From Candidatus Methanoperedens sp. (GTDB lineage Archaea; Halobacteriota; Methanosarcinia; Methanosarcinales; Methanoperedenaceae), in assembly GCA_012026795.1 (NCBI GenBank), contig VEPM01000025.1, positions 1 to 60,008 of the forward strand: 60,008 bases of DNA, given 5' to 3'. The notes under the pieces were generated by a model. That model had not been told where the DNA came from and did not search any database. It was given only the letters and a program-made list of their open reading frames with translations. The translations under genes and the position numbers were made by a program. Each line of letters begins with the position of its first letter. Positions within the stretch are counted from its first letter, which is position 1. Below, piece by piece: positions 1-10,560 of this stretch.

Positions 1-91
1 ATTTTAAAAAACGATAAGCATAGGACTAACCGTTTGTTAGGCTAACACACATATGGGCAATAGATAGCGGATTTTCGATCATCTTTGAAAG

Positions 92-430
92 GTGAGTTTT
101 ACTGCTATTCCAGGCTTGAGCAGGTCTGGGACAACAGTTTCAATGCTGATGTTCAGGGGTTATTCAGCCAGGGAGGCCCTAAAAGTTAGCTTTCTTGTTA
201 GTATTCCTGCTGTTTTAGGAGTAGAAGTCCTGCTTGGATTACTGAAAACCAAAACAATCAATGTTTTAATCATTCCTGGAATAATTGCTTCGTTCATTTT
301 TGGTTTGATTACGATAAAATCCCTTGTAAAACTTGCAGAGACGATAAATTTTGGCTATTTCTGCTCTGGATTCAGTCTTATCATTATACTGTATGTTATA
401 GCATCTTCTTCGTACAACATATTTGGCTAG
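92..430 (+). pseudogene. uppP: UppP/BacA undecaprenyl-diphosphatase, C-terminal half only
   Basis: The reading frame opens with the PGLSRSGTT motif, the second conserved phosphate-binding loop of UppP-type polyprenyl diphosphatases, and continues with about 100 residues containing three hydrophobic segments, as in the C-terminal part of the family. Intact family members are about 270 residues and carry this motif near residue 170, so the N-terminal half is missing. A TGA lies two codons before the GTG at 92 in the same frame, and none of the three plus-strand frames between 1 and 91 shows UppP-like sequence. The family recycles membrane lipid carriers. The break is probably a deletion or rearrangement; a non-functional remnant is the simplest reading. 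Confidence 0.75.
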
Positions 431-1441: not shown

Positions 1442-1477
1442 TGGCTGAAATATGCCAGATTATTAAAGGGGTCTTTC

Positions 1478-1523
1478 TACTGATTTTATTTAGTATCTAT
1501 AGATTATTGTGATAAATTATATA
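1478..1523 (+). promoter_or_regulatory. Repeated promoter element, copy A
   Basis: A 46-base block containing the palindrome ATCTATAGAT followed about 15 bases later by a TATA box (AAATTATATAA). It is identical to copy B at 1788-1833 and closely matched by copies at 2775 and 4075. The TATA box lies about 40 bases before the ATG at 1557, which fits archaeal promoter geometry with a short leader. The conserved palindrome directly upstream of the TATA box is a candidate operator. Confidence 0.7.
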
Positions 1524-1556
1524 ACTCCGTGAATGAAATCTTAATCTGTGATAGAT

Positions 1557-1775
1557 ATGAATGAAAATGAGAACATTATAAATAATCCTTTATTTTGCGG
1601 TAAGCAGCCTGGTCAAAAAATCTTGCTGAAAATAGATTGGGATGCTCTGGATAGTGCCTGGGCGGACCTGTACAGAGAAGACTATGGATATCTTTTTTCC
1701 AGCACTTTCTTCAGCAATAATCGTATCAACATACAAGCCGCACATATTGAGACCGGTATGGTGGATTTGGCATAA
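1557..1775 (+). CDS. Small hypothetical protein, 72 residues
   Basis: I do not recognise this protein. It is a short acidic, soluble-looking product with one cysteine near the N-terminus (FCGKQPGQ) and no obvious membrane segment. Its first 15 residues resemble those of the next small gene at 1867 (MNENENIIN against MKENEKIMN, both followed by a GK pair), and the two share an identical promoter 310 bases apart, so they probably arose by tandem duplication followed by divergence of the C-terminal parts. A GTG at 1548 is in frame, but the ATG at 1557 matches the equivalent start of the paralogue. Its location among phosphate-stress genes suggests, but does not show, induction under phosphate limitation. 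Confidence 0.6.
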   Translation: MNENENIINNPLFCGKQPGQKILLKIDWDALDSAWADLYREDYGYLFSSTFFSNNRINIQAAHIETGMVDLA

Positions 1776-1787
1776 AGCCACTATTTA

Positions 1788-1833
1788 TACTGATTTTATT
1801 TAGTATCTATAGATTATTGTGATAAATTATATA
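1788..1833 (+). promoter_or_regulatory. Repeated promoter element, copy B
   Basis: Identical over 46 bases to copy A, including the ATCTATAGAT palindrome and TATA box. The similarity continues into the leader (an AATCTTAATCTGTGATAGA stretch) up to the start codon at 1867. It drives the second small gene. Confidence 0.7.
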
Positions 1834-1866
1834 AATTTGCGGGTAGAATCTTAATCTGTGATAGAA

Positions 1867-2007
1867 ATGAAAGAAAATGAAAAAATTATGAACAAATCCC
1901 TCTCATACGGTAAACTTAACAATCCAACCGAAGAGGGATTTATGGAATTAAATCAGGAAGATAAGGAGATATACTTGTTCATGCGTGGAGGATTTGCAGC
2001 CAAGTAG
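1867..2007 (+). CDS. Small hypothetical protein, 46 residues
   Basis: A 46-codon frame from an ATG 39 bases downstream of the TATA box of copy B. The N-terminal 15 residues are related to the product at 1557; the rest (ending LFMRGGFAAK) is different. No known domain is visible. The conserved promoter, leader and N-terminus argue that it is a real gene rather than chance, but its function is unknown. It is followed after 14 bases by another small frame. Confidence 0.5.
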   Translation: MKENEKIMNKSLSYGKLNNPTEEGFMELNQEDKEIYLFMRGGFAAK

Positions 2008-2021
2008 GCTGAGATGAAATT

Positions 2022-2177
2022 ATGAATCCACTCGATATCCTGTTATTTATCTGCGAAAAAAGAGAAGAATTTGTAGAACAGGGGTTAAATGCGCATGATG
2101 CCTTAAGAGAAGCAAAGCATGTGGCAGCTGAAGAATTTCACATATGCTCTGCATCTATGACAAAATTAATTCCATGA
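2022..2177 (+). CDS. Small hypothetical protein, 51 residues
   Basis: A 51-codon frame beginning MNPLDILLFICEKREEF, starting 14 bases after the stop of the preceding small gene and so probably on the same transcript. The sequence looks amphipathic and helical with two cysteines. No family is recognised. Support is only its position, an ATG and a protein-like composition. Confidence 0.4.
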   Translation: MNPLDILLFICEKREEFVEQGLNAHDALREAKHVAAEEFHICSASMTKLIP

Positions 2178-2251
2178 AACAGTAATGATGTTAATTAACC
2201 TGAAATCTATTAAAATGGGATATATTAAAATATAAACATATTAAACTGGAA

Positions 2252-2326
2252 ATGAGCTTGAATAAGATTGAATCTTTTCTGATAATAATTCTTCTTATAC
2301 TTGCCCTCTGGATGGTGGTTAAATGA
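2252..2326 (+). CDS. Predicted 24-residue membrane peptide coupled to psiE
   Basis: A 24-codon frame, MSLNKIESF followed by an uninterrupted hydrophobic stretch of about 14 residues and ending WMVVK. Its stop codon overlaps the start of psiE in an ATGA, the usual sign of translational coupling. A peptide with a single membrane helix next to a four-helix membrane protein could be an accessory subunit, or the frame could simply be a leader that sets psiE translation. An AT-rich stretch with TATA-like runs lies just upstream (2215-2245). Confidence 0.45.
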   Translation: MSLNKIESFLIIILLILALWMVVK

Positions 2327-2730
2327 TAGATCACAGAAAAATTTTTAAAAAAGTTACCGACTCTATCGTTACCATCATCCTGTATATACTGCTGCTGGCA
2401 CTTATAGCAGGGATGTTGCGGATTTTACTTGATATAGGCTCTGTTGCGATAGACTCGCTTGATGGCGGTTTTAATAAAATTGTTACTAACGTTCTAACGC
2501 TCTTTATTGTAATCGAGTTCTTCAAGACCTTTGCAGACTACTCCAGATTCGAAAGAATAAAGCTCACCGACATAACAGACGTCACGATTTTAATAACCAT
2601 GCGTGAGGCCACGGTTGGGTTTTATTCCAAAACATTTGGATTTGAAACGATTTTCGCACTCTCGGCATTGCTGCTGGTGCTCGGAGTGATCAGGGTAATG
2701 GCCATCAGGTACTCACCGGAAAAGGCTTGA
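2323..2730 (+). CDS. psiE: PsiE-family phosphate-starvation membrane protein
   Basis: A 135-residue membrane protein, the same length as Escherichia coli PsiE (about 136), with four predicted membrane helices: one near residue 15-40, one at 55-70, one around 85-95 and one at 108-127. The charged loop after helix two, with FADYSRFERIKLTDITD and the REAT pair in helix three, fits the PsiE family pattern. PsiE is induced by phosphate starvation in bacteria; its biochemical role is unknown. Its placement 1.5 kb before pstSCAB-phoU supports the assignment. Its start overlaps the stop of a 24-residue membrane peptide gene. Confidence 0.75.
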   Translation: MIDHRKIFKKVTDSIVTIILYILLLALIAGMLRILLDIGSVAIDSLDGGFNKIVTNVLTLFIVIEFFKTFADYSRFERIKLTDITDVTILITMREATVGFYSKTFGFETIFALSALLLVLGVIRVMAIRYSPEKA

Positions 2731-2774
2731 AAAGATTTGAAAGCATTGCGCTTCTTTGAAAGGAAATCTAATTT

Positions 2775-2820
2775 ATACGATAATATATAGAATATATAGA
2801 TTATTTAGATAAAATATATA
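2775..2820 (+). promoter_or_regulatory. Repeated promoter element, copy D (divergent)
   Basis: A diverged version of the element at 1478: it keeps TATAGATTATTTAGAT, then a TATA box (AAAATATATAA), and a TCTAATCT leader motif before the ATG at 2845. The palindrome is less perfect here (ATATATAGAT). Confidence 0.5.
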
Positions 2821-2844
2821 ATGTGTAAATTCTAATCTAAAGTT

Positions 2845-2913
2845 ATGAAAGACTTAAAGAGGATTATTAAAAGTTATATACCTAAACGGATAAGTGATAT
2901 TACTGGGTTTTAA
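2845..2913 (+). CDS. Possible 22-residue peptide
   Basis: A 22-codon frame, MKDLKRIIKSYIPKRISDI and four more residues, strongly basic. It starts at the place equivalent to the small genes behind promoter copies A and B. Being so short it could be chance, or an upstream peptide affecting the TIM-barrel gene at 2978. Function unknown. Confidence 0.3.
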   Translation: MKDLKRIIKSYIPKRISDITGF

Positions 2914-2977
2914 AATATATACTACAACTCCTAAAAATAATTAAGATATATTTGTGAGATAACGATAAAAGAACTAT

Positions 2978-3859
2978 ATGAATACAAAAGTAGGTATGAA
3001 TTCTCCCCGGATAAAAGAATTTGGTGGAGAAATCGATGCTCAGGAGGTGGAAATTATTGAGCTCGGTCTTGACAGGGTGGATTTTCTGGACGAACAAAGA
3101 AAGAAAGAATTATTGTCAAAAGCCAAATATCTTGCCTCATCTTTTGGCACTGAATTTACTATTCATGCCCCACACATTGATTCCAGGATCGAGGGAATAA
3201 AAATAGATTTTTCAGCCAGTAACGGAAAAAATTTCACTGTTATGGAAAAAGTCGTCAAGATAGCCGCAGAAATCGGAGCGGGATATGTAGTTGTTCATCC
3301 AGGCAGTCAGAATGGCGAAAGAAAGTGTCTTAACTCTAATATACTCAATTTAATTCGCCTGTGTGCTCTCGCCGAAGAATACGGCGTCATCCTGCTCTTA
3401 GAGAACCTTTTTGACAGGGAAGGAGGAAATAAAGTTGGTGTATTCCCGGGAGAAATTTTCCATATAATTGAAATGGTGGGCTCAGAAAGTTTAAAGATAA
3501 ATCTGGATATCGGTCATGCGTTTATTGCCTCCAGAGCAAATGGGCTATTCCTGGAAGATTATTTTGAGTTAGGCAGCTACATACATCAAATGCATCTTCA
3601 TGATAACTTCGGTATCCTGGAGTCAGAAGAAGCAATGTTTGGAGACCGCCACCTTCCTCTGGGACTTGGAAAAATAAATTTCAGGGAAGTATTTAAAAAT
3701 ATATTGAAGACAAATACAAGAAATTTGATCCTGGAACTTAAAAACTCATCGAAAGAAAATACCCTTGAAAGCCTTGTACAAATCAGAGAATTTTGCAATT
3801 TAAGGTATGGTTTAACGCCCCTGCATCCTATTGAATCTGCTATCGTATGCGTTCAATAA
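2978..3859 (+). CDS. Sugar phosphate isomerase/epimerase-like TIM-barrel protein
   Basis: A 293-residue protein of the xylose isomerase-like TIM-barrel superfamily (AP endonuclease family 2). Visible metal-site and strand motifs in order: FTIHAPH near residue 63, VVVHPGSQ near 108, LLLENL near 145, NLDIGHA near 175, MHLHDN near 208, HLPLGLGKINF near 227 and LILELK near 252. These supply the His, Glu and Asp ligands typical of the fold. Members isomerise sugars or cyclitols, or cut DNA at abasic sites; the length and HLPLG motif fit the isomerase-like branch of archaea, whose substrate is unknown. It lies between two copies of the putative phosphate promoter. Confidence 0.75.
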   Translation: MNTKVGMNSPRIKEFGGEIDAQEVEIIELGLDRVDFLDEQRKKELLSKAKYLASSFGTEFTIHAPHIDSRIEGIKIDFSASNGKNFTVMEKVVKIAAEIGAGYVVVHPGSQNGERKCLNSNILNLIRLCALAEEYGVILLLENLFDREGGNKVGVFPGEIFHIIEMVGSESLKINLDIGHAFIASRANGLFLEDYFELGSYIHQMHLHDNFGILESEEAMFGDRHLPLGLGKINFREVFKNILKTNTRNLILELKNSSKENTLESLVQIREFCNLRYGLTPLHPIESAIVCVQ

Positions 3860-4074
3860 AGCTTAGGCAACTCCCGTTAATAAGTTGGCATCTATAAATC
3901 AAGACAAAATCAGTCGCATATTTACGATAGGAATAAGAAAAACATTAAGGAGTATCATACCCTGATCGGGATGTGCAGTTTCAGCATATTAACAGATAAT
4001 GCGAACTGTTTGAGAACAGATTAAGAAAGCAGGATTTGTAAATGTTGGTCTCCATCATTTCTTGAACCATAATT

Positions 4075-4122
4075 TACTGATTTTATATAGTATCTATAGA
4101 TTCTTGGGAGTAGCTATATATT
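4075..4122 (+). promoter_or_regulatory. Repeated promoter element, copy C, before pstS
   Basis: It shares TACTGATTTTATATAGTATC and the ATCTATAGAT palindrome with copies A and B, then has its own TATA box (CTATATATTA) about 40 bases before the pstS start. The rest of the gap from 3860 holds no visible gene. Its presence in front of the phosphate transporter is the main argument that the element is phosphate-responsive. Confidence 0.7.
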
Positions 4123-4157
4123 ATTTGATTCAGAATTCTTGCTGGTGAAAAAATAAA

Positions 4158-5282
4158 ATGAATAGATTAAAGATGATACTAATTCTGATCCTGGCAGGCG
4201 TGCTGTTAGCGGGATGCGTAAGCAAGCAACCTGCCGAAGTACAGCCTACGGTACAACCTGCGCAGTCGACAGGCGTACCAACCGACCAGACCACAAAAGC
4301 CCCGGAAACCTTAAATGGCGCAGGTGCAACATTCCCCTATCCCCTGATATCAAAATGGAGTTCGGAATACAATAAGATAAAGCCGGATGTCCAGATCAAT
4401 TACCAGAGCGTGGGAAGCGGTGCGGGTATAAAGCAAATAACCGAAAGAACGGTAGATTTCGGTGCAAGTGATGCGCCCCTGACAGAGCAGGAATTTTCAA
4501 ATATTTCCGGAGTCCTCCAGATACCCGAGTCTATAGGTGCAGTCGTTGTAGCTTATAACCTGCCAGGCATACAGACCGGGGTTAAACTTAGCGGAGATGT
4601 GGTTGCTGATATATTCCTCGGGAAAATCACAAAATGGAATGATCCGAGGATAGTTTCCATTAACTCAGGTATCCAGCTCCCGGATAAAGATATTATTGTT
4701 GCACACAGGAGCGATGGAAGCGGAACGACCTTTGTCTTCACGGATTATCTTTCAGCCGTCAGTCCCGACTGGAAATCAAAGGCTGGAAAGGGTAAATCGG
4801 TTAACTGGCCTGTCGGTCTTGGCGGAAAAGGGAATGAAGGCGTTGCAGGTCTATTAAGCCAGAACCCTTATTCAATAGGTTATATCGAGCTGGCTTATGC
4901 CAAACTCCAGAAAATCTCATATGCTTATATCAGGAATAAAGCAGGAAAGTTCATCGAACCGACCCTTGAAACCACTGCAAACGCTGCGGCAGGCGCAGTG
5001 CAGACACTGCCAGCAGGCGATGCAAACTGGTCAACCGTGAGTATTGTAAATGCCCCGGGAGATAATTCATATCCTATAGGCAGCTTTACCTATTTCCTTG
5101 CCTATAAAGACCAGAAAGACCAGACAAAGGGTAAATTATTGGCTGAATTCCTCTGGTGGGCAGTACATGACGGCCAGAAATATTCCTCAGACCTTCTCTA
5201 TGTACCGCTGCCGGACGAAGTCATAAGCATTAATGAAAAAACCATAAAACTTATGAACTACAACGGACAACAATTTATTTAG
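4158..5282 (+). CDS. pstS: Phosphate ABC transporter, substrate-binding lipoprotein
   Basis: The product has a lipoprotein signal peptide with the lipobox LLAGC (Cys20), a threonine/proline-rich linker to about residue 50, then a PstS-type periplasmic binding fold: LNGAGATFPYPL, VGSGAG, DFGASDAP and HRSDGSGTTFVF, whose serine, threonine and aspartate residues contact phosphate in the family. It captures phosphate outside the cell and delivers it to PstC/PstA. At 374 residues it is the usual length. It is the first gene of pstSCAB-phoU, has promoter copy C in front, and its TAG is followed directly by the pstC start codon. Confidence 0.97.
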   Translation: MNRLKMILILILAGVLLAGCVSKQPAEVQPTVQPAQSTGVPTDQTTKAPETLNGAGATFPYPLISKWSSEYNKIKPDVQINYQSVGSGAGIKQITERTVDFGASDAPLTEQEFSNISGVLQIPESIGAVVVAYNLPGIQTGVKLSGDVVADIFLGKITKWNDPRIVSINSGIQLPDKDIIVAHRSDGSGTTFVFTDYLSAVSPDWKSKAGKGKSVNWPVGLGGKGNEGVAGLLSQNPYSIGYIELAYAKLQKISYAYIRNKAGKFIEPTLETTANAAAGAVQTLPAGDANWSTVSIVNAPGDNSYPIGSFTYFLAYKDQKDQTKGKLLAEFLWWAVHDGQKYSSDLLYVPLPDEVISINEKTIKLMNYNGQQFI

Positions 5283-6242
5283 ATGGATCGATCGAAATTG
5301 TCTTTTTTCCATATCAGCCGGAGTAAACTCTCCGGCGATTTTATTTTTGAAGCTGCTATCGGCTTCTTTGCCCTTAGCATAATGATTCTAGCATTTTTAT
5401 TGTTCAGAGAGCTTTTTATCGGGTCAGCACTTTCAAGAGACATTTTTGGCATGGGTTTTTTGACAGGTTCCACATGGGACCCCGTCGCTGAGGTATTTGG
5501 CGCCCTGCCTTTTATCTTCGGGACTCTCGTATCATCATTTCTTGCCCTGGTCATTGCCGTCCCTTTTAGTCTTGGAATAGCGATATTTCTTTCAGAACTC
5601 GCCCCGGAAAAGCTGAGAACACCCTTATCTTTCATAATAGAGTTGCTGGCTGCTATTCCAAGCGTCATTATCGGCCTCTGGGGGATATTCATTCTCGCCC
5701 CTTTCATCCGCGACTATCTTGCACCGCCTCTTTCAACATACCTTGGTTTTCTTCCGCTCTTCCAGGGACCGATGTATGGATTATCCATGCTCACCGGCGG
5801 AGTGATACTTGCAATCATGATTATCCCAATAACATCATCGGTATCCAGGGAAGTCATTATGACAGTGCCCACACACCAGCGGGAAGCAGCCCTGGCTCTG
5901 GGCGCTACAGGCTGGGAGACCACACGAATTGCTGTTCTTCCTTATGCCAGATCAGGAATATTCGGGGCTGTAATCCTTGGGTTTGGCAGGGCGATAGGCG
6001 AAACAATGGCAGTGACTATGGTCATCGGGAACAGTCCCAGGATATCAGAGTCACTTTTCTCACCATCGTACACTATGGCCTCGGTTATTGCAAATGAGTT
6101 TGTGGAGGCTACCTCAAAGCTTTACATCTCATCTCTTATTGAGATCGGGTTTTTGCTACTGGTCATATCTTTCATAATCAATATTGCAGCCAGGATTCTG
6201 GTGTGGAAGCTGCTTAAAGTTGAGGGCGGTGGAGTGACGTGA
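5283..6242 (+). CDS. pstC: Phosphate ABC transporter permease PstC
   Basis: A 319-residue inner permease with six predicted membrane helices and the binding-protein-dependent transport motif around residue 210-245 (REAALALGATGWETT and FGRAIGETMAV). The short N-terminal cytoplasmic segment and the loop with FLPLFQGPMYG are typical of PstC. With PstA it forms the membrane channel for phosphate. The ATG at 5283 follows the pstS stop with no gap and the 3' end overlaps pstA by four bases, so translation is coupled. Confidence 0.95.
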   Translation: MDRSKLSFFHISRSKLSGDFIFEAAIGFFALSIMILAFLLFRELFIGSALSRDIFGMGFLTGSTWDPVAEVFGALPFIFGTLVSSFLALVIAVPFSLGIAIFLSELAPEKLRTPLSFIIELLAAIPSVIIGLWGIFILAPFIRDYLAPPLSTYLGFLPLFQGPMYGLSMLTGGVILAIMIIPITSSVSREVIMTVPTHQREAALALGATGWETTRIAVLPYARSGIFGAVILGFGRAIGETMAVTMVIGNSPRISESLFSPSYTMASVIANEFVEATSKLYISSLIEIGFLLLVISFIINIAARILVWKLLKVEGGGVT

Positions 6243-7075
6243 AATGGAATAAAAGAAGAATAATAGACAGGGTTATGGCAATTCTTACAGCTGCCTGCGT
6301 GGCAATTGCCATAATCCCGTTGCTGAGCATCCTCTACACGGTAACCATCAACGGGATATCAGCTGTAAACCTGGATTTTCTTACACAGATCCCCAGGCCT
6401 GTTGGTGAACCTGGAGGCGGACTCGGGAATGCAATCCAGGGGACATTCATAGTCGTGGGGATTGCATGCTTAATCGGGCTTCCTGTGGGCATCCTCGCTG
6501 GTGTATATCTTTCAGAATATGGACAGAACAGGTTTGGCCGTATAGTAAGTTTTGTTGCTGATGTGCTTACTGGCACACCTTCAATAGTGGCAGGGATGTT
6601 CGGTTATACTTTCATTGTCCTTTATTCTGGAAGCTTTTCGGCTATTGCAGGCGGAGTGGCACTATCGGTTTTGATGATACCGATTGTTACAAGAACTACT
6701 GAGGAATCCCTCAGGCTTGTGCCCGGATCGATCAAAGAAGCTTCCCTGGCATTAGGAATACCAAAGTGGAAAACAACATTATACATCGTTATAAACACTG
6801 CAAGAAGCGGCATAATAACAGGCGTTTTACTTTCCATTGCAAGGATATCAGGTGAGACTGCACCACTTTTGTTTACATCTTTTGGCAATATGTTCTGGGC
6901 TAACGGATTAGATAAACCAATATCTACCATGCCAGTACAAATCTATACATACGCAATAACACCCTTCCCTGACTGGCATGCTAAAGCCTGGGGAGGCGCT
7001 CTTATTCTGATTATCCTGATTCTTATTTTAAACATTGGAGTGAGGTTTGTTACCAGGAAAAAATATGGAATGTAA
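6239..7075 (+). CDS. pstA: Phosphate ABC transporter permease PstA
   Basis: A 278-residue permease with six predicted helices. It has the PstA pattern: a first helix, then PRPVGEPGGGLGNAIQGT around residue 52-68, the TGTPSIVAGMFGY loop near 110, and the EAA-type motif IKEASLALGIPKWKTT near 163 that contacts the ATPase. It starts with GTG, overlapping the pstC TGA (GTGA), which fits a coupled operon. Partner of PstC in the membrane channel. Confidence 0.95.
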   Translation: MKWNKRRIIDRVMAILTAACVAIAIIPLLSILYTVTINGISAVNLDFLTQIPRPVGEPGGGLGNAIQGTFIVVGIACLIGLPVGILAGVYLSEYGQNRFGRIVSFVADVLTGTPSIVAGMFGYTFIVLYSGSFSAIAGGVALSVLMIPIVTRTTEESLRLVPGSIKEASLALGIPKWKTTLYIVINTARSGIITGVLLSIARISGETAPLLFTSFGNMFWANGLDKPISTMPVQIYTYAITPFPDWHAKAWGGALILIILILILNIGVRFVTRKKYGM

Positions 7076-7087
7076 AAAGGAGTATAA

Positions 7088-7846
7088 ATGCAGAATAAAA
7101 TCACAGTAGAAAATCTCAATGCATGGTTTGGAGCCAAACAGGTACTCCATAACATCGATATTGGTATTGAGAAAAACGGGATAACTGCTATCATCGGTCC
7201 GTCAGGATGCGGGAAATCCACATTCATCCGATGCATCAATAGAATGCATGAAGTCGTACCAAAAGCAAGAGTCCAGGGTAAAGTGATGGTTGATGACACG
7301 GATATCTATGGTAACGATATCGACCCTGTGGATATCAGGAGGCGCATCGGTATGGTATTCCAGAAACCCAATCCATTTCCGACAATGTCAATACGTGATA
7401 ATGTTGTGGCCGGGTTGAAACTGGGTGGAGTAAAGGATAAAAAGAAGCTCGATCATATCGCCGGGGAGAGCTTAAAAAAGGCCGCTCTCTGGGATGAGGT
7501 CAAGAGTGACCTTAACAAATCCGGCGCAAGCTTATCTGGCGGCCAACAGCAGCGCCTGTGCATAGCAAGGGCATTAGCTGTTGAGCCGGATGTTATCCTT
7601 TTTGATGAACCCTGCTCAGCCCTTGACCCTATATCTACAAGCAAGATAGAAGACCTGATGATGGAACTTAAAGAAAAATATACCATAGTCATAGTAACGC
7701 ATAATATGCAGCAGGCAGCAAGAGTCAGTGATCATACGGCTTTCTTCCTGTATGGAAAGCTGGTAGAGTTCGGAGAAACAAATCAGATATTTAAGAAGCC
7801 AAAGGAAAAGAGCACTGAAGATTACATAGTCGGGAGGTTTGGATAA
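7088..7846 (+). CDS. pstB: Phosphate ABC transporter ATP-binding protein
   Basis: A 252-residue ABC ATPase with Walker [10 protein letters not shown] at residues 37-45, Q-loop FQKPNPFP, signature [16 protein letters not shown], Walker [14 protein letters not shown] and switch histidine VTHNM. The QKPNPFP sequence and the strong similarity in length place it in PstB rather than another importer ATPase. It powers phosphate import through PstCA. It begins 12 bases after pstA behind a GGAGT ribosome site, and stops just before phoU. Confidence 0.97.
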
Positions 7847-7847
7847 T

Positions 7848-8501
7848 ATGGTCCGGGAAGCGTATCACAAAGACCTTCACAGGTTGAAGGGAGATATAGT
7901 TAACATGGGAAACCTTGTTGGAAGTGCAATAAGGGATGCAGTAATTTCTCTTAGAAATCGTGATGTGGAGATGGCCCAGAATGTCATTGACATGGATAAT
8001 GAGATAGATGCCCTGGATCATGAAATTGAGGAGAACTGCATGCGTCTTCTTGCTCTCCAGCAACCTATGGCGCGGGATTTGCGGCTGATAATCGCAGTTT
8101 TAAAAATGTCTATTGATCTTGAAAGGATTGGCGATCTTTCTTTAGAAATAGCGGTTATTACGAAGATGAGTGCTGATGTGCCTCCCGTTAAGCCTCTCAT
8201 CGATATACCAAGAATGTCAGATATCTGCCAGGAAATGATCAGGGATTGCATGAATGCCTTTGAAAATAAGGATGTGGAGCTTGCAAGAAAGACCGCCAGG
8301 AGAGATGATGAGATCGATGCGCTCTTTGACCAGGTAAGAAGGGAACTTATTACAATTATGATCGAGGAACCAAAAAAGATAACTGGCGCACAACACCTGA
8401 CTTTTGTCGCAAGATATCTTGAGAGAATAGGGGATCACATAACGAACCTGTGCGAAAGCGTTGTTTTTATGGTGACAGGAGAAAGGGTGGAGTTAAATTA
8501 G
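7848..8501 (+). CDS. phoU: PhoU phosphate signalling protein
   Basis: A 217-residue all-helical protein made of two PhoU repeats, each with the family metal-binding pattern (ALQQPMARDLRLIIAVLKMS then DLERIGD in the first, EEPKKITGAQHLTFVARYLERIGDH in the second is the equivalent region). PhoU senses the state of the Pst transporter and restrains phosphate uptake and the phosphate response. I choose the ATG at 7848, which follows the pstB stop by one base, over an in-frame TTG at 7839 inside pstB. It is the last gene of the operon, converging with modE. Confidence 0.95.
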   Translation: MVREAYHKDLHRLKGDIVNMGNLVGSAIRDAVISLRNRDVEMAQNVIDMDNEIDALDHEIEENCMRLLALQQPMARDLRLIIAVLKMSIDLERIGDLSLEIAVITKMSADVPPVKPLIDIPRMSDICQEMIRDCMNAFENKDVELARKTARRDDEIDALFDQVRRELITIMIEEPKKITGAQHLTFVARYLERIGDHITNLCESVVFMVTGERVELN

Positions 8502-8523: not shown

Positions 8524-9069
8524 TTATTCTTTTCCGATCATGACTTCTGTCGCTTTTACTATAGCCATTACTTTATCATTCTTTTTGATATCGAGGGATT
8601 CAACCGCTTCTGTTGTTATTACCGCAGTTATTGTTGCAGGTTCTATCTGGATCTTGACTTTTGACACAAGGTCCCCTTTCTCGATATCCAATACTTTACC
8701 TTTCATCTGATTTCTTGCAGATATTTTCAACCCGATCACCTCCCAGAATGTTTTATCATACACTGTTTGAGTAAGTATATTTTGATATGTACTATATTCG
8801 TCTATTAAGTCTATTGCTTTTTCGGTCAAAAATGTTCCCTGGTCTTTTCCGCCCCTTCTTTTGATTATTACGGGCTCTCCCACGCTTTCTTGAATTTCGT
8901 TTAGCAGAAGCCATGCATGCTTATAAGAGATATTTGTTTTTTTGCAGGCTTTGTTCAAAGAACCCTCTTCTTTAATGGCTTTAAGGAGAGAGACTTTTCC
9001 CTCACCCATGATTGGTTCATCTTTGTTGTTTACCAGCCATAATTTTGTTTTAACCTGTGTTCGTTCCAT
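8524..9069 (-). CDS. modE: ModE-type molybdate/tungstate-responsive regulator
   Basis: A 181-residue regulator. Residues 1-110 form a LysR-like winged helix of the ModE type (GEGKVSLLKAIKEEGSLNKACK, SYKHAWLLLNEI, then RRGGKDQGTFLTEKA), and residues 112-180 form one Mop/TOBE oxyanion-binding domain (ISARNQMKGKV, ITAVITTEAVE). Bacterial ModE has two Mop copies; a single one is common in shorter archaeal forms. It should bind molybdate or tungstate and control the adjacent transporter and moeA genes. It lies at the 3' end of moeA-tupB-tupC-modE but also has a TATA-like sequence at the end of tupC, so it may have its own promoter. Confidence 0.88.
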   Translation of the reverse strand: MERTQVKTKLWLVNNKDEPIMGEGKVSLLKAIKEEGSLNKACKKTNISYKHAWLLLNEIQESVGEPVIIKRRGGKDQGTFLTEKAIDLIDEYSTYQNILTQTVYDKTFWEVIGLKISARNQMKGKVLDIEKGDLVSKVKIQIEPATITAVITTEAVESLDIKKNDKVMAIVKATEVMIGKE

Positions 9070-9092
9070 CGCAACCTTGAATTAAGAAAGGT

Positions 9093-9108
9093 TTATTAAT
9101 ATATAAAC
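9093..9108 (-). promoter_or_regulatory. Probable modE promoter (TATA box)
   Basis: On the minus strand the sequence GTTTATATATTAATAAAC spans the tupC stop codon and ends about 25 bases before the modE ATG. It is itself nearly palindromic. The spacing would give a leaderless or very short-leader modE transcript, allowing modE to be made independently of the transporter. Confidence 0.45.
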
Positions 9109-9824
9109 TCTCCATTTATAAACGCGTAAGACCTCGCATCTTTAGGGTAAGTGAATATCTGCTCTTTAGTATTTACCTCAATCAACTCTCCATTAAGCAG
9201 AATTCCCACCCTGTCGGCGATGCGCCTGACCTGGTGCATATTGTGGGATGCCATAATAATCGTCGTGCCAGGATCGTTTCTTATCTTTCTGATAATTTCC
9301 TCTATCTTCGCAACATTGGCCGGGTCAAGATTAGCCGTCGGCTCATCAAGAAGAAGGACATCAGGTTTAAAGACAATCGCCCTTGCAAAAGCCATTCTCT
9401 GGGCTTCCCCGCCTGAAAGGGTCAGAGCTTTTTGTTTCTCACAGCCTCTAAGTCCCACAAGATTTAGCGCATCAGCTACTTTTTCTTCAATTTTGTTTCT
9501 ATCTGCGCCCCGAATGGCCAGTCCATAGGCTACATTATCGAAGACCGAAGAATTGAATATCGCAGGTTTCTGAAAAAGCATTGACATCCTGGACATGATA
9601 TTGTTTTTCTTATTGATCAAATATTCATTCCCATTAAACACTATTCTTCCTGATGAGTGTGTATCCAAAAAATTTATGATCCGAAGCATTGTGGTCTTCC
9701 CAACCCCGCTTGGCCCCATGAAAGCAAAAATCTCCCCTCGATAAATTTCAAGGTTGATATTTTTCAATACTTCTTTATTCCCAAAGGATTTGCCAAGGTT
9801 CTCTATCCGGAACAATTCCTCCAT
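9096..9824 (-). CDS. tupC: Tungstate/molybdate ABC transporter ATP-binding protein
   Basis: A 242-residue ABC ATPase with Walker A GPSGVGKTT, Q-loop LFQKPAIF, signature LSGGEAQRMAFARAI, Walker B VLLLDEPTANLDP and switch region ASHNMHQ. It lacks the C-terminal TOBE domain found in ModC/WtpC, which fits TupC. The ATG at 9824 is chosen because a GGAGA ribosome site lies 7 bases upstream; a longer in-frame start at 9875 would sit inside tupB. It energises the TupB permease encoded one base upstream. Confidence 0.85.
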   Translation of the reverse strand: MEELFRIENLGKSFGNKEVLKNINLEIYRGEIFAFMGPSGVGKTTMLRIINFLDTHSSGRIVFNGNEYLINKKNNIMSRMSMLFQKPAIFNSSVFDNVAYGLAIRGADRNKIEEKVADALNLVGLRGCEKQKALTLSGGEAQRMAFARAIVFKPDVLLLDEPTANLDPANVAKIEEIIRKIRNDPGTTIIMASHNMHQVRRIADRVGILLNGELIEVNTKEQIFTYPKDARSYAFINGEFIY

Positions 9825-9825
9825 T

Positions 9826-10560
9826 TTAATTTCTCCTCTGGAAATAGTTTGCCAGGATATTAAGGGAAAGTACAAGGGAGATAAGTATAATTCCGAGAGC
9901 TATCGATGTTGAGATATCGCCTTTACTGGTTTCGGATGTGATTGCGGTGGTGAGCGTTCTGGTTTCAGAGAGTCCTTCACCTATTCCCCCTACACTTCCC
10001 GTGCGTGCTATGTTGCCACCTACGATGAGAATGGCCCCAACTTCTGCCAGTCCCCTTCCAAGTCCTGCAAGTATCGCTGTGATGATGCCAAACCTTGCCT
10101 CTTTTAATGTCGCAATCACTGCATCTGTTTTGTTTCCACCGAGAGTATAGACCGTCTCGATTATCGATTGGGGAACAGATTTTATTGCAGCAAGAGAAAT
10201 GCCGGATATTATTGGTGTAATAAGAATATACTGGACAAGGATCATTGCTTCCTGCGTGTAAATAATATCCAGGAACCCAAAGGGACCAACAGGCACAACC
10301 ATCAGGAAAACAAGGAGGCCAACAAAAACAGGGGGAAGCCCCATACCAGTATTAATCAGTGTGATGATGACCTGCTTACCCCTAAAGTGCATGAAAGATA
10401 TGGCAAACGCCAATGGTATTGCAGTAAAGGTAGCAAGTATAGTGGCGGTGCCTGATACTTTGACAGAAACGCCTGTTATGCTCAGGATATATGGGTTCTG
10501 GCTGAATATCAGCTCAAACGCTTTAATAATTCCCTGTATCAAAAAGTCAGAGCTGCTCAT
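9826..10560 (-). CDS. tupB: Tungstate ABC transporter permease
   Basis: A 244-residue permease with about five or six membrane helices and a conserved cytoplasmic loop (TLGGNKTDAVIATLKEAR then GLGRGLAEVGAILIVGGNI) that is very characteristic of TupB, the tungstate permease, rather than ModB. It works with TupC to import tungstate or molybdate oxyanions. The expected substrate-binding lipoprotein TupA is not adjacent: the next gene upstream is moeA, and the region beyond is repeats. The binding protein must be encoded elsewhere, or has been lost. Confidence 0.85.
   Translation of the reverse strand: MSSSDFLIQGIIKAFELIFSQNPYILSITGVSVKVSGTATILATFTAIPLAFAISFMHFRGKQVIITLINTGMGLPPVFVGLLVFLMVVPVGPFGFLDIIYTQEAMILVQYILITPIISGISLAAIKSVPQSIIETVYTLGGNKTDAVIATLKEARFGIITAILAGLGRGLAEVGAILIVGGNIARTGSVGGIGEGLSETRTLTTAITSETSKGDISTSIALGIILISLVLSLNILANYFQRRN

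Follow-up and report, generated by a model that had tools for sequence, protein, structure and literature searches.

The phosphate genes of one Candidatus Methanoperedens genome are interspersed with four copies of a single promoter-like block, which raises the question of what this block does and which protein reads it. The stretch of DNA concerned, here called the window, is an entire contig of 60,008 nucleotides (nt) (VEPM01000025.1, also referred to as C25) from a near-complete genome of 3.59 Mb in 68 contigs. From comparison of sequences across the family, the block is probably the operator and core promoter of a Pho regulon of the Methanoperedenaceae, with a fusion of a MazE/AbrB domain to a PhoU domain (AbrB-PhoU) as its most likely binding protein. 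The features of the pst cluster are given below, with block scores taken from a sequence profile, R1, and small proteins encoded by open reading frames (ORFs).

1476..1526, + strand: putative operator/promoter block 1, a 46-nt repeat before small ORF A (R1 E=6.8e-12)
1548..1775, + strand: small ORF A, 75 residues, no Pfam family
1786..1836, + strand: putative operator/promoter block 2, 46-nt repeat (R1 E=1.9e-10)
1858..2007, + strand: small protein gene B, 49 residues, conserved C-terminus YLFxRGGFxAK
2022..2177, + strand: small ORF C, 51 residues, conserved at this place in a number of relatives (57-100% identity)
2323..2730, + strand: psiE (PF06146 E=8.7e-10)
2773..2823, + strand: putative operator/promoter block 3, diverged, 74% repeat match, before the TIM-barrel gene (R1 E=1.6e-7)
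2978..3859, + strand: TIM-barrel gene, AP_endonuc_2 or sugar-phosphate isomerase-like (PF01261 E=1.7e-32)
4073..4123, + strand: putative operator/promoter block 4, before pstS, 85% repeat match (R1 E=7.2e-13)
4158..5282, + strand: pstS, phosphate-binding protein (PF12849 E=6.5e-44)
5283..7846, + strand: pstC, pstA and pstB, read from the ORFs, with pstC homology also used in the comparison of neighbors
7839..8501, + strand: stand-alone phoU without a DNA-binding domain (PF01895 E=2.4e-52)

The four blocks are confirmed to be real and not due to chance. In a direct-repeat search, the 46-nt blocks at 1478-1523 and 1788-1833 are 100% identical, while 4075-4120 and 2775-2820 match them at 85% and 74%, respectively; all are + strand copies whose TATA box is equally placed. 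The initial annotation, which had described two identical copies, one close and one diverged, each with a TATA box at fixed spacing, was correct on these points, and Pfam likewise upholds its naming of psiE (PF06146, E = 9e-10 in round terms) and pstS (PF12849). A search with a 15-nt core, allowing up to 2 mismatches, was unspecific in this genome (8+9 matches against 11+4 for a backwards control), although it brought to light another good copy, the fifth, which lies on C57. The full profile was used for this reason. R1 was trained on 40 block copies, including the four of the window, and matches with E <= 1e-5 are termed strong. A control profile, R2, which is R1 with its letters reversed, gave zero matches below E = 0.01 in the same 34 Methanoperedenaceae genomes. 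Copies that had not been used in training also score strongly under R1, at C20:63361 (E=2e-12) and C20:78507 (E=9e-7).

In this genome there are eight strong matches, with E values from 5e-13 to 9e-7, and the score falls from 30.7 to 19.6 bits below the eighth; the weaker matches have no related neighboring genes. Four of the eight lie in the window, three beside abrB-phoU genes, and one before an alkaline phosphatase gene. The copies on other contigs, all found with R1, are as follows.

C57:6815: block head-to-head with an abrB-phoU gene
C20:63361: block head-to-head with an abrB-phoU gene
C20:73434: block before the type-2 abrB-phoU gene
C20:78507: block before a secreted alkaline phosphatase gene (PF00245 E=3e-82)

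The same association extends across the family, where 123 strong copies are found in the 34 genomes. Their neighbors are distributed in the following way, with PiT denoting the PHO4-type transporter and PHA polyhydroxyalkanoate.

Facing abrB-phoU1 head-to-head, with 11-16 nt to its start codon: 35 of 123 copies
Before pstS-type genes: 29 of 123
Before abrB-phoU2: 13 of 123
Before the TIM-barrel gene: 14 of 123
Before a small-protein gene or psiE: about 20 of 123
Before a DUF47/PhoU-like and PHO4 (PiT) transporter pair: 3 of 123
Before alkaline phosphatase: 1 of 123
Before PHA-synthase genes (PhaE/PhaC): 2 of 123, one in each of two species, at L140 (G027:C106:17486) and L108 (G008:C170:48177)
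Remaining copies: three close to the phosphatase locus, a single copy at the end of a contig, another before a helix-turn-helix (HTH)-like ORF, and a last one ahead of a pstS-like leader

Altogether, 81 of the 123 copies adjoin genes that were independently annotated as phosphate genes (PhoU fusion, pstS, PiT transporter or phosphatase), and 34 further copies, most of them inside the pst cluster, precede the small-protein, psiE, and TIM-barrel genes. Phosphate or pst-cluster genes adjoin every one of the eight strong sites here and, family-wide, no fewer than 115 of 123; a few sites in the family have other or unclear neighbors, and the promoters of unrelated housekeeping genes are without the block. 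The initial annotation had suggested a phosphate operator of this lineage and had counted a spread of the block before housekeeping genes as evidence to the contrary. A search of the genome and its relatives, with the downstream genes listed, found the opposite of such a spread, and the gene neighbors argue well for the suggested operator.

The association with pst also holds where the genes themselves have diverged. All 20 assessable pstS orthologues have the block, and it is kept by divergent pst operons, with PstS proteins only 23-45% identical, in G001, G002, G004, G015, G031, and G032. Weaker copies are found before alkaline phosphatase in G006 and near a phosphatase in G022. In four genomes weaker block-like sites (E 7e-5 to ~1e-3; G029:C121:3486, G027:C95:25572, G016:C25:7106, and G010:C54:1115) precede a 165-residue gene of unknown function and ppk1. 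Viral contigs gave zero matches to a strict block pattern.

It could be argued that the block is merely a strong constitutive promoter that has been spread by local tandem duplication and has no regulatory meaning. Two of the four window copies are indeed a tandem duplicate, as blocks 1 and 2 sit within a longer repeat of 130 nt (1474-1603 and 1784-1913, 82%). However, pstS, abrB-phoU, phosphatase, PiT, and PHA genes have their copies of the block on different contigs with unrelated flanks, in more than 30 species; these copies lie almost exclusively at phosphate genes, and the 35 nt upstream of the promoter elements hold positions conserved like the TATA box, all of which makes this explanation very improbable.

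Beyond the Methanoperedenaceae, among 150 genomes of the order, only eight weak matches are seen (E 3e-5 to 9e-4), and most of the searched genomes from other families have no block-like site. Six of these eight precede pst genes: two genomes have the site 30 nt before a PstS-like gene, one has it 49 nt before pstC, and three have it about 500 nt before pstS. In the last three (L155:4410, L156:4332, and L158:4409), the site is followed by a small ORF related to the small protein of the window.

The anatomy of the block indicates which part of it a protein might recognize. The consensus over the 123 sites is T.TACTGATtTTaTaTAgtATaTATAGATTaTTGgGA.AAa.TATATA, with its strongest positions in TACTGAT, in TATAGATTnTTG, and in the part formed by the transcription factor B recognition element (BRE) and the TATA box. 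The BRE/TATA part occupies block positions 39-48 (AAAnTATATA), and the gene start usually follows 23-63 nt onward. The conserved core is TACTGAT–N13–TATAGATTnTTGGGA, just upstream of the BRE/TATA part, and not an exact palindrome. The initial annotation had joined a palindrome, ATCTATAGAT, to the TATA box. This is exact at 1478, 1788, and 4075, with the copy at 2775 reading ATATATAGAT, but it does not form the conserved core, since the exact ATCTATAGAT occurs in 11 of 29 pstS copies and in 0 of 35 abrB-phoU1 copies, 28 of which read ATATATAGAT. The inverted symmetry is modest, being reached by 2.7% of column shuffles, and the palindrome was rejected as the core. Direct repeats of 10 nt were rejected likewise, as 22% of column shuffles reach the best pair. 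The site thus appears to be asymmetric.

This absence of significant direct repeats also bears on the idea that a bacterial-type PhoR-PhoB two-component system operates here through a Pho box. The gene content does resemble a bacterial Pho regulon, yet the Trans_reg_C domain typical of PhoB has no match at E<=0.001 in this genome, whereas the control search was positive in 10 of 14 genomes, and such a system is barely credible.

The leading candidate, and most likely the protein that binds the block, is instead AbrB-PhoU. In this genome abrB-phoU1 lies at C57 5780-6799 and encodes 340 residues; a paralogue of 74% identity and a distant type-2 relative (C20:73525-74502) are located on C20. The type-1 protein has an N-terminal MazE/AbrB domain (PF04014, 30.6 bits against a Pfam cut-off of 24.7) and a C-terminal PhoU domain (PF01895 E=1.4e-21); in the type-2 fusion the MazE/AbrB domain falls below the Pfam cut-off, with 22.2 bits in G006. 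All 36 abrB-phoU1 genes have a block head-to-head at 11-16 nt from the start (35 strong, with that of G014 weak). One or more AbrB-PhoU genes are present in every genome that has a strong site, and the sole genome lacking such a gene, G033 (67% complete), has no strong site. Because abrB-phoU1 begins only 11-16 nt away, the bases of the block probably serve on that side as its TATA region, and they would double as a promoter on the opposite strand. Most relatives in which this regulator is encoded at 74-93% identity carry the name Candidatus Methanoperedens or Methanoperedenaceae, which places the lineage in the Methanoperedenaceae. Our literature search found no paper that describes an archaeal AbrB-PhoU as a phosphate regulator.

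An AlphaFold model of the protein has a predicted local distance difference test score (pLDDT) of 83, and its C-terminal part matches PhoU crystal structures from Aquifex, Pseudomonas, and others. The middle domain, at residues ~56-130, bears a weak likeness to Alba (1udv and 8xap; Foldseek E 0.5-0.7, probability 1.00), the best match having E=0.54, and could possibly act as a second nucleic-acid-binding part.

The initial annotation had seen no obvious DNA-binding regulator among the genes of the operon and had stated that the binding protein could not be known from the window. The first of these statements holds for the window itself. In several relatives, by contrast, the candidate gene adjoins the pst cluster, and in this genome it is encoded elsewhere, head-to-head with the block, so that there is now a concrete candidate.

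A number of observations weigh against AbrB-PhoU as the binding protein. Head-to-head placement is an association and not proof, and the MazE/AbrB part is modelled at low confidence (~50-70 pLDDT). G006, which is 99% complete, has seven site matches and no type-1 fusion, only type 2, and type 1 therefore cannot be the sole binding protein. AbrB-PhoU homologues of 28-39% identity in other families have no strong block upstream, a search in which detection of the gene start failed at several loci. Finally, the MazE/AbrB family is matched 18 times in this genome, mostly by small proteins, and any of the 18 might bind.

Some of these points would suit a phosphate-regulon operator bound by an unlinked factor, be it another AbrB, a TrmB or an HTH protein, with the AbrB-PhoU genes mere members of the regulon. 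Bacterial phoU is, after all, usually a target and its product not a DNA binder; G006 has its sites without the type-1 gene; the other MazE/AbrB proteins are numerous; and one site, on contig C11 of G011, precedes an HTH-like ORF. Against this, AbrB-PhoU has a DNA-binding-type domain of its own, its type-1 gene is the most constant neighbor of the block, the site is placed where autoregulation would be expected, and strong sites and fusion genes occur together down to their joint absence from G033. We consider an unlinked factor rather unlikely.

If AbrB-PhoU is the regulator, it would act as follows. Block positions 3-37 (TACTGAT-N13-TATAGATTnTTGgGA) would be the protein-binding part. The protein would read the phosphate status through its PhoU domain, either via the Pst transporter, as does bacterial PhoU, or via a ligand, and would act on the DNA directly; a protein that does so has no need of a sensor kinase or of PhoB. 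When phosphate is short, AbrB-PhoU at pst and the other outward genes would help to recruit TBP/TFB, a site just upstream of the BRE/TATA part being typical for archaeal activators. At its own gene the block probably covers the TATA region, and there the protein should repress itself. What the sequences show directly is the site, how it is distributed, oriented and spaced, the domains of the candidate, and the lack of a PhoB-type domain in this genome; binding by AbrB-PhoU, the response to phosphate, activation of pst, and autorepression are all inferred.

The main mechanical alternative retains the same operator and binding protein but has it act as a repressor everywhere, covering the edge of the BRE (TTGGGA) when phosphate is replete so that pst is off, and being released upon starvation. 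The conserved part reaches position 37, up to the BRE/TATA part, where a protein on the site might get in the way of TFB; PhoU is a negative factor in bacteria; and autorepression at the abrB-phoU gene is consistent with it. However, archaeal repressor sites usually overlap the TATA box or the start site, whereas most of the conserved operator here lies upstream of the BRE at a fixed distance, an arrangement that would better fit recruitment of TBP/TFB. Repression throughout is a serious contender that we place somewhat below even.

The activating mechanism in its full form describes a one-protein switch, in which a PhoU sensor joined to a MazE/AbrB domain, with an Alba-like middle, would use one operator to repress itself and, free of a kinase, to activate pst, phosphatase, PiT, and, in some species, PHA-synthesis genes, along with the conserved small protein of ~45 residues encoded by the first gene of the pst cluster. 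Taken as a whole, this is nearly an even call.

That small protein (window 1858-2007) belongs to a family of ~45-60 residues, with relatives at L155, L156, L158, and L193-L212; in Methanoperedens it follows the block, and gene B is the first gene past the block in ~25 family loci. Its C-terminus reads YLFxRGGFxAK in Methanoperedens and LYRFMxGGxxxK in another family of the order, where relatives are found before pst in some genomes and beside cysteine-desulfurase-like genes in others. Shorter versions of 30-44 residues (RRFLRGGFGAK) occur elsewhere in Methanoperedens. At L155:4410, L156:4332, and L158:4409, which belong to three genomes of another family, a small CxxC protein also follows the block-like site. 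Small ORF A in the window has a start duplicated from small ORF B and is missing the conserved C-terminal motif. Block 3 stands ~151 nt from the TIM-barrel gene in the window against 23-30 nt in relatives, and the extra stretch (2824-2977) holds a second TATA-like run, AAAATATATA, near 2913. After the pst operon, at 8524-10560, lie genes for a ModE-like HTH+TOBE protein and an ATP-binding cassette (ABC) transporter, read as probably for tungstate or molybdate; the R1 search of the genome found no block near them.

The regulon genes of this genome may be less scattered than its contigs imply. The uppP gene is split, with residues 1-164 at the end of C20 and residues 163-271 at window 98-424. 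At the break (window 1-97 and L096:5380-5472 at the C20 end), GTTTTACT is common to both sides, their CTTTCAAAG ends are inverted, and an 8-nt target appears to be duplicated. The gene seems to be interrupted by an insertion sequence, and C20 and C25 are probably neighbors with this element between them. Their adjacency would bring the second abrB-phoU1, abrB-phoU2, alkaline phosphatase, uppP, and pst into one locus, and in G004 and G027 a single contig does hold most of them. Close to abrB-phoU2 in this genome, L095:13883-14848 encodes a PstS-like binding protein (PF12849) whose start resembles that of a pilin, and relatives of it are near abrB-phoU2 in other genomes too. On C57, a fragment of an ISAzo13-type transposase gene (L009:6927-7424; PF07592 E=2e-68) runs from just downstream of the abrB-phoU1 block to the contig end, and at its position several relatives carry a small gene and pst.

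The control of phosphate uptake is poorly known in archaea other than haloarchaea. For Methanoperedens, which encompasses uncultured anaerobic methane oxidisers, the analysis supplies an operator that is defined, a list of genes, and a concrete candidate for the regulator. The copies at PHA-synthase genes suggest that phosphate limitation may be tied directly to carbon storage in some species, and a conserved, formerly unassigned small protein appears to have a place in the phosphate response.

Compared with the bacterial PhoR-PhoB regulon, the gene set is similar (pst, phoU, psiE, alkaline phosphatase, and sometimes ppk), but this genome is without a PhoB-type domain, the promoter is of the archaeal BRE/TATA kind, and the site has another architecture. 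In Methanosarcina mazei, transcripts of pstSCAB-phoU and of alkaline phosphatase (phoA) rise upon phosphate starvation (PMC6864096), and the same genes bear the block in Methanoperedens. In contrast, ppk1 fell during starvation in M. mazei (PMC6864096), whereas some Methanoperedens genomes have weak block-like sites before it. The passages on this PHO stimulon name no operator or regulator, and they describe the control of polyphosphate genes as unknown in M. mazei and in archaea generally (PMC6864096). The fusion has the same domain names as TK2245, a SpoVT/AbrB regulator with a PhoU domain that is among the chromosome-associated proteins of Thermococcus kodakarensis (PMC7325993). The passage on TK2245 reports no target operator, whereas the Methanoperedens gene stands next to a conserved operator that pst has as well, and the model of its protein has the middle part that weakly resembles Alba.

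The closest precedent is in Halobacterium salinarum, where a pho-box in the pst promoters is reported to be needed for up-regulation and is called a PhoU-regulator binding motif (PMC6560208, citing Furtwangler et al. 2010). Going by the description, both are archaeal cis-elements in the promoters of phosphate-specific ABC transporters. Unlike the haloarchaeal pho-box as described there, the site in Methanoperedenaceae is found at phosphatase, PiT, PHA-synthase, and regulator genes as well, and it stands head-to-head with the gene for an AbrB-PhoU fusion. An archaeal pho-box was thus already known, and the Methanoperedens operator with its candidate AbrB-PhoU regulator would be a further element of this general kind.

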